Positions 48,240 to 50,510 of a stretch of 64,000 nt of DNA are shown here, piece by piece (position 1 is the stretch's first letter; each line of letters begins with the position of its first letter). Below the pieces are notes generated by a model that ran no database searches, had not been told where the DNA came from, and saw nothing but the letters and a program-made list of their open reading frames with translations. A program made the translations under genes and the position numbers. The DNA is from an uncultured Thiotrichaceae bacterium (GTDB taxonomy: Bacteria; Pseudomonadota; Gammaproteobacteria; Thiotrichales; Thiotrichaceae), in contig CACVAY010000112.1 in the NCBI GenBank assembly GCA_902727985.1, forward strand, positions 1 to 64,000. Reading direction: 5' to 3'.

Positions 48240-48515
48240 ATGACTGAATCACGACATGCATTGATCAGCCATTTACAAGATCGCGTACGTGATGGACAGC
48301 CACCTTCGGCATTGTTAAATCACATGGCCCTTGATTTAGACATCAAGGATCAGGTGGAATTGATGAAGTATTTTGTTGAGGCTTTCGATCTGACCTTGGG
48401 TGAGGTAACAGCAATCGGAGCTTGGTGGTATGAGGATGAGCGCGAAATGAATGACACTGATATTGACTTCTATATCTCACCTTTACTCAAGGGTTGGTTG
48501 GAAAATAACGCCTGA
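48240..48515 (+). CDS. Hypothetical small protein, 91 aa
   Basis: MTESRHALISHLQDRVRDGQPPSALLNHMALDLDIKDQVELMKYFVEAFDLTLGEVTAIGAWWYEDER..., soluble, acidic. The family is not one I can name. The start at 48240 is chosen because the 35 residues before it in the longest frame look non-coding. Confidence 0.65.
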   Translation: MTESRHALISHLQDRVRDGQPPSALLNHMALDLDIKDQVELMKYFVEAFDLTLGEVTAIGAWWYEDEREMNDTDIDFYISPLLKGWLENNA

Positions 48516-48612
48516 TTTCAATTTATTTGGAATAAATACCTAAGCTGCTTCGTCTAGACTTAAGAGTGACGTAATACTTTGCGTCACTAATATGGTTTAG
48601 TGTGGAGTGGCA

Positions 48613-49137
48613 ATGATTTTTCCCCGCAAGCGTCGGTTTCGTCAGCAGTTAGAAGTGTTGCAACCGGTGTTGTTCAAATTAGCTTGGTCATGGTGTCATG
48701 ATCAAGAGCTAGCGAATGACTTGGTGCAAGACACCTGTCAGGTTGCATTAAAGAAGTATCAGCACCTCCAAGACCTTTCAAAAGCCAAGCCTTGGCTGGT
48801 TCGCATTCTTGCGAATCTTCATATTGACCACTGTCGTCGACAAAAAGATATTATCCCATTTAATGATGAATACCCCACGCAGGGTAATGATCCGGCTGAA
48901 CTCAATGGACGGCTTGATGATATTGAGTGTGTACGACGTGCTATTGCCAACTTGCATCATGATCATCGTAAAATCATCACGCTGGTTGATCTTGCAGAAT
49001 GCTCCTATGCCGAAGTAGCCGATATTCTGGATATTCCAGTAGGTACAGTGATGAGCCGATTGAGTCGGGCGCGAACACAACTACGTAGCACTCTGGAATC
49101 ATCTCATTACAAACCCATGCTGCGGAGCGTCAAATAA
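48613..49137 (+). CDS. ECF RNA polymerase sigma factor
   Basis: About 174 aa with region 2 (LVQDTCQVALKKYQHLQDLSKAKPWLVRILANLHIDHCRR) and region 4 (HRKIITLVDLAECSYAEVADILDIPVGTVMSRLSRARTQLR). GGAG sits before the ATG at 48613. Its stop overlaps the anti-sigma start (ATGA-type overlap), making a classic ECF/anti-sigma pair. Confidence 0.93.
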   Translation: MIFPRKRRFRQQLEVLQPVLFKLAWSWCHDQELANDLVQDTCQVALKKYQHLQDLSKAKPWLVRILANLHIDHCRRQKDIIPFNDEYPTQGNDPAELNGRLDDIECVRRAIANLHHDHRKIITLVDLAECSYAEVADILDIPVGTVMSRLSRARTQLRSTLESSHYKPMLRSVK

Positions 49138-49859
49138 TGAAGCGATATCCCCGTTCAGATGAGTGGTTGAACGCTTTTGTTGATAATGAGTTTCCTGCAA
49201 AAGAGCGCGCTAAAATTCTCAAACAGATACACATGGATGCGGAGAAAAAATCAACTGCGTGCGCGTTGAGTCACCTCAAAGATCAAGTCAAAACAGCTTA
49301 CCAGGATATTCCTCCGCACCAATCGTTTCAGCCGCGCAAGAAATTTCATATATGGCAGGCTGTGGCTGCCAGTGTGCTTATGCTGTTTGTTCTCGGTGGT
49401 GCGTATTTAGGTGTCGATTCTATTACTCAGCAACGTATGGTGATTTTGGACCCAACAGGTAGTGGGCAACAGCTCGCAACTCAAAATGAAAATGAGATGC
49501 GCATTGTCTTCCATGTGAGTCAGACATCGCGTTTAAAAGGGACGGAGTTACTAGATGATATTGAGCATTTGTTGCTGCAGTACCAACAGGGAGGGAAACG
49601 TATTCGTGTTGAAGTTGTGGCTCATGCACAAGGTCTGGATTTACTCCGACAGAGTTTGTCTGTCGATAAAGAGCGCATTACCGCTATGTCGATCAAATAC
49701 CCCGATCTTACTTTTGTTGCATGCTTGAATACGATCGAACGATTGAAGCGCGAACAGGGCATTGATGTAGTGCTCATTGATGAAGTGTTATCAGCAAGAT
49801 CCGGCGTGGCACATGTGGTGAAACGTCAGCAACAGGGATGGATATATATACAAGTATAA
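49137..49859 (+). CDS. Anti-sigma factor with a periplasmic DsrE-like sensor domain
   Basis: 240 aa. The cytoplasmic part (1-70; SDEWLNAFVDNEFPAKERAKIL) resembles zinc-free anti-sigma N-domains. One transmembrane helix (about 74-94, AVAASVLMLFVLGGAYLGV) follows. The periplasmic part (about 115-240) is homologous to the secreted DsrE-like protein encoded next: RIVFHVSQ / KVVYHVNY, RIRVEVVAHAQGLDLL / DIKVVLHGNGLAMLL, LTFVACLNTI / VAFNVCNNTV, and the ends GWIYIQV / GYVYIKP. The shared cysteine is in the DsrE position. I infer that a sulfur species or partner protein is sensed outside the membrane and frees the sigma factor. Confidence 0.82.
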   Translation: MKRYPRSDEWLNAFVDNEFPAKERAKILKQIHMDAEKKSTACALSHLKDQVKTAYQDIPPHQSFQPRKKFHIWQAVAASVLMLFVLGGAYLGVDSITQQRMVILDPTGSGQQLATQNENEMRIVFHVSQTSRLKGTELLDDIEHLLLQYQQGGKRIRVEVVAHAQGLDLLRQSLSVDKERITAMSIKYPDLTFVACLNTIERLKREQGIDVVLIDEVLSARSGVAHVVKRQQQGWIYIQV

Positions 49860-49963
49860 GGTCATTTTCAGCGTATTAGCTGAGCAGAGACCGATTGACA
49901 GGTAGCAGCAGCGAAAGCATTTTCACGGCTGACTACTATTTTTAACTAAAAGGAGAGAGTACG

Positions 49964-50449
49964 ATGAAAAAAATCTTATCATTAATGGCTACGGCAGCAT
50001 TGTTGGTCGCTTCGGTGATGAATACAGCCGTTGCTGAAGATACGGGTTACGGTAAACAAAAAGTGGTATATCACGTCAATTACGACGACCCAAAGAAGCA
50101 GACGGGCGCATTACGTAATATCCAAAACCATATCAATGCGGTCGGTGCAGAAAATATGGATATTAAAGTGGTATTACATGGCAATGGTTTAGCGATGTTG
50201 TTGACCCCTGATTCTTTAGATAAATTAAAGAAATTCAAACATGCCAATGCTGATGATAAAATGTCGGCGAAAATTGATGGCTTGAAAGATCAAGGTGTTG
50301 CATTTAATGTCTGCAACAATACTGTGAAAGGTCGTGAAGTTAGCTTAAAAGATGATCTCTACAATGTGGATGAGAAAGATATTGTCCCTAGTGGCGTTGC
50401 CGAACTCGCAAAATTACAGCAAGAAGGCTATGTGTATATCAAACCTTAG
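49964..50449 (+). CDS. Periplasmic DsrE-family protein
   Basis: 161 aa with a signal peptide (MKKILSLMATAALLVASVMNTAVA-ED) and a DsrE-like alpha/beta domain (KVVYHVNYDDPKKQTGALRNIQNHINAVGAENMDIKVVLHGNGLAML) with one conserved cysteine (FNVCNNTV). DsrE relatives bind or transfer sulfane sulfur. AAAGGAGAG lies ahead of the start. It follows the ECF/anti-sigma pair and resembles the anti-sigma sensor domain, so it may be a partner, competitor or target of that system. Confidence 0.88.
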   Translation: MKKILSLMATAALLVASVMNTAVAEDTGYGKQKVVYHVNYDDPKKQTGALRNIQNHINAVGAENMDIKVVLHGNGLAMLLTPDSLDKLKKFKHANADDKMSAKIDGLKDQGVAFNVCNNTVKGREVSLKDDLYNVDEKDIVPSGVAELAKLQQEGYVYIKP

Positions 50450-50480: not shown

Positions 50481-50510
50481 AAAACGCAGAGCCATGGCTC
50501 TGCGTTTTTT
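50481..50510. terminator. Rho-independent terminator
   Basis: AAAACGCAGAGCC-AT-GGCTCTGCGTTTT, near-perfect stem with following T residues, after the DsrE-like gene. Confidence 0.92.

Follow-up and report, generated by a model that had tools for sequence, protein, structure and literature searches.

Analysis of the window (the whole stretch of DNA examined, 64,000 nucleotides from an uncultured Thiotrichaceae bacterium) indicated the presence of a module of three genes, encoding an ECF sigma factor, an anti-sigma factor and an exported DsrE-family protein, all on the plus strand and located where the initial annotation had placed them. The genes and associated features were as follows:

48529 to 48556, plus strand: ECF promoter of the module, GGAATAAA-N14-CGTCTA (GGAAT, 17 nt, CGTC), the sole exact match in the genome to the motif found de novo 5' of 104 related sigma genes
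48565 to 48588, no strand assigned: inverted repeat AGTGACG..CGTCACT, 10 pairs with a 4-nt loop, in the interval between promoter and start codon
48613 to 49137, plus strand: ECF sigma factor gene, with the ATG at 48613 preceded by GGAG; an alternative GTG start at 48607 is possible
49137 to 49859, plus strand: transmembrane anti-sigma factor gene, its start overlapping the sigma stop by 1 nt
49161 to 49301, plus strand: helical, cytoplasmic anti-sigma domain (residues 9-55), related to the N-terminus of the EcfR6-type anti-sigma factor of S. meliloti
49359 to 49415, plus strand: predicted membrane helix, residues 75-93 (hydropathy 2.14; AlphaFold2 helix 73-87)
49491 to 49856, plus strand: periplasmic DsrE-fold domain of the anti-sigma factor, residues 119-240 (BLASTP, PDB match, AlphaFold2 and Foldseek)
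49722 to 49724, plus strand: codon of anti-sigma Cys196, invariant and the sole cysteine of the periplasmic domain in 104/104 copies
49964 to 50449, plus strand: gene for the exported DsrE-family protein, with a hydrophobic leader (Pfam DsrE, E 9.3e-13)
50312 to 50314, plus strand: codon of Cys117 of the exported protein, the equivalent single cysteine (74/76 secreted homologues)
50481 to 50510, plus strand: terminator-like stem-loop and T run ending the unit, read directly from the sequence and absent from the inverted-repeat scan output

The sigma protein scored above the cut-offs of both the r2 and r4 Pfam models, and the exported DsrE gene started 104 nt after the anti-sigma gene. The inverted repeat at 48565 to 48588 is a possible operator or leader hairpin. 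A small ORF at 48240-48515, the family of which is not known, lies immediately 5' of the sigma gene. Scanning for sigma-70 promoters detected fewer sites than in shuffles. A scan of genome contigs returned two loci, with the module at only one of them.

The exported protein matched the Pfam DsrE family (PF02635) with 48.8 bits against a cut-off of 22.7. The anti-sigma protein had no Pfam match at an E value of 1 or below and no NCBIfam match; its C-terminal half aligned with the exported protein (BLASTP E 2e-12, 26% over 170 columns), confirming the proposed homology between the two. Cys196 and Cys117 were aligned, as were the endings GWIYIQV and GYVYIKP, both of which had been noticed by eye. 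A comparison with the PDB detected 1l1s (MTH1491, a DsrE-like protein) at E 6.8e-11, or 3.9e-18 when a profile of 15 relatives was utilized. In the AlphaFold2 model, residues 1-55 formed helices, another helix spanned 73-87 and the C-terminal domain was confident, with pLDDT values of 84-97 per ten-residue block over residues 121-240; the pTM of the whole model was 0.55, as expected with two domains on a flexible link. DsrE-like proteins occupied the top PDB ranks in Foldseek, where the closest structures were 1l1s (E 1.7e-9, TM 0.88 on the target) and 2pd2, and DsrEFH was matched weakly (2hy5_C, E 0.021). The initial annotation had staked its proposal on a DsrE fold for the anti-sigma domain, and this is the fold given by AlphaFold2 and Foldseek. 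Overall, the protein had the layout of a membrane-bound anti-sigma factor, with an N-terminal helical domain predicted to bind sigma, one membrane helix and an extracytoplasmic domain, encoded directly after the sigma gene. Both DsrE parts are predicted to be periplasmic, one following the membrane helix and the other a signal peptide, so that the suggested interaction across the membrane has to be abandoned in that form.

A survey of other genomes for this gene trio, as had been recommended, indicated that the module is widespread in Gammaproteobacteria. A profile search detected at least 94 copies of the full-length anti-sigma factor in at least 73 of 370 sampled gammaproteobacterial genomes, from 42 families. 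The profile was built from 15 full-length anti-sigma proteins, and the full-length matches were hand-picked (start at 12 or before, end at 238 or after), which makes the 73 genomes a lower bound. Among 57 related genomes the anti-sigma protein was matched in 27, in some through the DsrE domain alone. When 397 genomes drawn from the phylum were searched, full-length matches were obtained in only 4, all from the same class (Gammaproteobacteria), and the remaining matches were to the DsrE part, in some cases including the helix region as well. No module was found in viral contigs, and plasmids yielded DsrE-domain matches only. Gene neighbourhoods were read for 104 copies at 102 loci. The anti-sigma gene directly followed the sigma gene in 103/104, and a secreted DsrE gene was adjacent to 65 of these 103 pairs (39 divergent and 26 downstream) and further off in 6; 30 pairs had none nearby, and two lay at contig ends. 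The architecture is not due to chance, because it recurs in 104 copies. Variations on the layout included tandem double sigma/anti-sigma pairs with DsrE genes on either side (L102 and L109) and one pair surrounded by three DsrE genes (L171).

Exactly one cysteine was present in the anti-sigma periplasmic domain of all 104 copies, always aligned with Cys196, and in 74 of 76 secreted DsrE proteins, at the aligned position; two secreted proteins without any cysteine (L147 and L154) were kept in the counts. MTH1491 and ST0148 also carry the aligned cysteine. With a single cysteine in its periplasmic domain, the sensor cannot switch through an intramolecular disulfide, which leaves one-thiol chemistry: a persulfide, a thiosulfonate, a sulfonate or bonding with a partner, for example the secreted DsrE. 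The motif HxxxCxxC is that of the zinc-binding anti-sigma factors (ZAS); it occurred in 0/104 copies, and this class was rejected. A thiosulfonate on the cysteine of DsrE3A of Metallosphaera is reported in the accessible part of PMC4175335.

The DsrE domains of the 104 anti-sigma factors separated completely from the 76 secreted DsrE proteins in a tree (an unrooted split). Recent duplication of the neighbouring gene was ruled out by this separation, which indicates a single old split, after which both members of the pair have been retained. For 65 loci, distances among anti-sigma DsrE domains were compared with those among secreted DsrE proteins; after allowing for sigma distances, the partial r was 0.24, and 500 permutations gave a mean of 0.00, an sd of 0.05 and a maximum of 0.14. 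The cytoplasmic N-terminal half of the anti-sigma factor, treated in the same way, was hardly correlated with the secreted DsrE (0.06). This residual correlation provides a weak hint of contact between the two DsrE partners.

The sigma genes had a promoter in common, GGAATA-N16-CGTC. An unsupervised count of bipartite words 5' of the 104 sigma genes detected GGAAT-N17-CGTC in 46, while any word pair occurred at most 5 times in a base-shuffled control set, and the looser pattern GGAAT-N16/17-C[GA]TC was present 5' of 80/104. At 10 bits a matrix matched 94/104 sigma genes and 1/520 shuffles, a comparison that is circular for the 80 of the 104 upstream stretches from which the matrix was built; the unsupervised count and the dsrE and sox motif tests are free of that circularity. 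The shuffles preserve base content and not dinucleotide content. Divergent dsrE genes had their own copy of the motif in 32/39 cases and downstream dsrE genes in 2/26, the latter being readable from the sigma promoter. On this placement of the motif, sigma factor, anti-sigma factor and DsrE appear to form one regulon in both arrangements, with positive autoregulation and, putatively, feedback through DsrE. Of seven loose pattern matches in the window's own genome, only the module promoter stood out and the other six looked like chance, and in this organism the module may have no targets beyond itself, or it may act through weaker sites.

Other genes were also associated with this motif. An exported protein starting ...NWLMLQGTE..., encoded divergently to sigma with its own strong ECF site (L051:7591-9036, and also L118, L125 and L103), is possibly an outer-membrane porin; the proteins of this kind that were tested had no Pfam, NCBIfam or PDB match. 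Two loci without DsrE (L123:2056-4230 on the minus strand and L124:4494-6626) had a SoxB-like/5'-nucleotidase paralogue under the same motif, and the one tested, from L123, scored below the SoxB cut-off. On a Gluconobacter plasmid (L267), an ECF pair without DsrE was divergent to a catalase-family peroxidase gene, with GGAATA/CGTC sites in both directions.

The module motif equals the ECF26 promoter consensus of alphaproteobacteria, as given in the available portions of PMC6527743 and PMC6180224. The former describes a GGAAT -35 and a CGTC -10 element for the ECF26 sigma factors of S. meliloti and S. novella, with sulfite as the signal, the sole measured one found for these nearest studied relatives; the latter, in the part seen, lists ECF26-type promoters, among them that of rpoE4, for which we counted the same 17-nt spacing. 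A sigma factor from an S. meliloti plasmid, taken as RpoE6 from its neighbours (an S8 peptidase and a VOC protein), was among the better plasmid matches to the module sigma profile (E 3e-44 in a search of 8 sequences). The EcfR6 anti-sigma factor, the one such protein tested, shared the N-terminus (E 5e-8) and was without a DsrE domain. From these sequence comparisons, the module looks like an ECF26-type switch in which, in Gammaproteobacteria, DsrE has replaced the periplasmic part. So far as the excerpts of PMC3511301, PMC6527743 and PMC6180224 extend, RpoE1, RpoE4 and RpoE6 of Sinorhizobium meliloti and SigE of Starkeya novella resemble the module in the GGAAT/CGTC promoter with 17-nt spacing, in a single-helix anti-sigma factor with a related N-terminus, in autoregulation (except for S. 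novella SigE) and in a response to sulfur compounds, which for the module is a predicted one. In those same excerpts the ECF26 targets are sulfite oxidases, unlike the candidate targets of the module, and the anti-sigma periplasmic domain is RsiW-like (PMC6180224), the one tested not being DsrE, whereas that of the module is DsrE. Furthermore, no secreted DsrE partner was seen at the one S. meliloti locus read, unlike at the module.

The association with sulfur oxidation was examined through soxB, which was present in 72/73 module genomes and 89/297 others (Fisher p 5e-30, the genomes not being independent); by family, the figures were 41/42 with the module and 35/~125 without, the ~125 being an estimate from the highest family label. 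The soxB list consisted of 161 genomes at E<1e-100, whereas 159 were counted above the cut-off. Within the family to which the window belongs, a SoxB-type gene was divergent to sigma at five loci (L045-L048 and L050), the motif lying 5' of its start or near it; L047 and L048 also had the motif at a SoxY-type gene. In separate sox loci the motif was detected at 15 bits or more in 17/40 module genomes and 3/40 others (p 5e-4). The counts were 14 and 1 of 40 at 19 bits, and 17 and 5 of 40 at 13 bits (p 0.005), a threshold at which 8/80 shuffled loci also matched. These 40 + 40 loci were chosen from 72 and 89 by approximate rank of SoxB score, not at random, and the sample omits module genomes with soxB adjoining the module and some contig-edge cases. 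The motifs were mostly 5' of soxB, soxX or a YeeE/TsuA-like transporter gene, with most identities assigned by eye and those of SoxB, SoxY, SoxX and the transporter checked on one example each: the SoxB of L048, the SoxY of L047 and one SoxX were above the NCBIfam cut-offs, and one transporter was above the Pfam cut-off and below that of TsuA. The sox stretch read was free of the motif at 13 bits in 23/40 module genomes. In the window's genome, soxB is present (C71:1404-3203), with no motif before it. An apparent dsrA-B-E-F-H-C-M-K-L run, the proteins of which were read by eye, was also observed in this genome (L056 4556-13089, G000:C146). The host of the window is likely to be a sulfur oxidizer. 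The proposed link to sulfur is thus upheld by the invariant single cysteine, the ECF26-type promoter and the association with soxB. In the first description of a stress-signalling design, 'stress' was probably the wrong word, as energy metabolism fits better.

These results suggested that the module is an ECF26-like transmembrane switch by which sulfur-oxidizing Gammaproteobacteria control sulfur oxidation in response to sulfur compounds, with DsrE as the sensor, a reading to which we assign a probability of about 0.7 because of the DsrE fold, the co-location, the single cysteine, the shared ECF26-like promoter, the soxB link and the residual co-variation. As read from sequence, the module has this fold, topology, single cysteine, co-conservation, shared promoter and sox link. 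In the resting state, the anti-sigma factor would hold the ECF26-like sigma factor at the membrane. Through its single cysteine, the periplasmic DsrE domain may sense a sulfur species in a reduced or intermediate state (sulfane sulfur, thiosulfate/tetrathionate or sulfite); in addition or instead, the secreted DsrE, loaded with sulfur on its own single cysteine, may dock on this domain. Inactivation of the anti-sigma factor, probably by regulated proteolysis, would release sigma to act at GGAATA-N16-CGTC promoters, from which its own operon and the gene of the secreted DsrE would be transcribed, joined in many genomes by soxB, soxX, soxY or the YeeE/TsuA-like transporter gene; the secreted DsrE would provide feedback. 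A more specific version is a periplasmic relay in which the secreted DsrE takes sulfane sulfur on its sole cysteine and either hands it over to the anti-sigma DsrE domain or forms an assembly with that domain, so that protein contact and not a diffusible ligand frees sigma; this version is tentative and rather doubtful. Counted against the switch were the lack of a motif before soxB in the window's genome, the 23/40 motif-free module genomes at 13 bits, the 30/103 pairs without a nearby DsrE and, as far as tested and as far as the sources go, the sensing of sulfite by ECF26 relatives without a DsrE domain.

Several other explanations were weighed against the switch. The secreted DsrE could be a mere metabolic sulfur carrier of the Sox pathway, in which case its gene would be a target and the protein would take no part in signalling. 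The separate promoter copies of 32/39 divergent dsrE genes would be expected of a target, and DsrE matches also occurred in genomes without a full-length anti-sigma match, but the tight co-location and the residual co-variation with the anti-sigma DsrE domain argue for a partner; the carrier role is a plausible reading at somewhat less than even odds.

Two further alternatives concern the signal. This could be sulfite, as in the alphaproteobacterial ECF26 systems, with sulfitolysis or S-sulfonation of the DsrE cysteine as the readout and the secreted DsrE serving as a sulfur acceptor for detoxification. The shared promoter consensus, the related sigma and the role of sulfite in S. meliloti and S. 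novella, as stated in the part of PMC6527743 seen, are consistent with this view; however, EcfR6 is without a DsrE domain, indicating that the sensing part differs, and the targets found at module and sox loci were sox genes, and we regard sulfite as an unlikely signal, albeit not strongly so. A general sensor of thiol, redox or metal stress, in which the lone cysteine responds to oxidants or metals and the sox link reflects only the lifestyle of the hosts, is quite improbable. Some plasmid-borne sigma relatives do adjoin a catalase-family peroxidase or serine protease gene, but the promoter lies directly before soxB, soxX, soxY and the sulfur transporter gene, far more commonly in module genomes, and the zinc motif was absent from all copies.

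The SoxR and sHdrR repressors are cytoplasmic proteins. As described in the available text, these ArsR-type repressors of Hyphomicrobium resemble the module in controlling sulfur oxidation and respond to sulfane sulfur; they belong to another family of regulators, and the sensor part of the module is periplasmic. SoxT1A/B act in sulfur import and signalling beside SoxR/sHdrR, according to the accessible part of PMC11582611. The DsrEFH/TusBCD sulfurtransferases share with the module the fold and a conserved cysteine (Cys78 of A. vinosum DsrE, in the portion of PMC13047784 consulted). These are cytoplasmic three-subunit carriers, whereas the module has one DsrE fused into an anti-sigma factor and another as an exported protein, and their layout of three adjacent dsrE-, dsrF- and dsrH-type genes with cytoplasmic products was not that of the module. 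The ECF sigma2 and sigma7 of Arcobacter butzleri affect sox genes, as the module would, and unlike the module have no DsrE reported in the part of PMC3445524 available. The design had been called one not seen described, and no account of a DsrE anti-sigma factor was found in the open-access library searched. Papers retrieved there for DsrE together with anti-sigma factors appeared unrelated; PMC2729926 matched only through DsRed, and PMC7451513 contained nothing of use. Control of sulfur metabolism by ECF factors is already known, and it is the DsrE sensor design that appears new.

In the accessible text of PMC11582611, extracellular sulfur sensing by regulators of sulfur oxidizers is called poorly understood, and sulfite sensing by anti-sigma factors is listed as an open question in that of PMC6527743. 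In the module, which belongs to a family found in many genomes, the fold is known, the promoter is defined, target genes can be named and just one cysteine is a candidate, so that a single point mutant and a single reporter could serve to test the question of sulfur sensing. Overall, the module looks like a so far undescribed way of sensing extracellular sulfur compounds in order to turn on the genes of sulfur oxidation.
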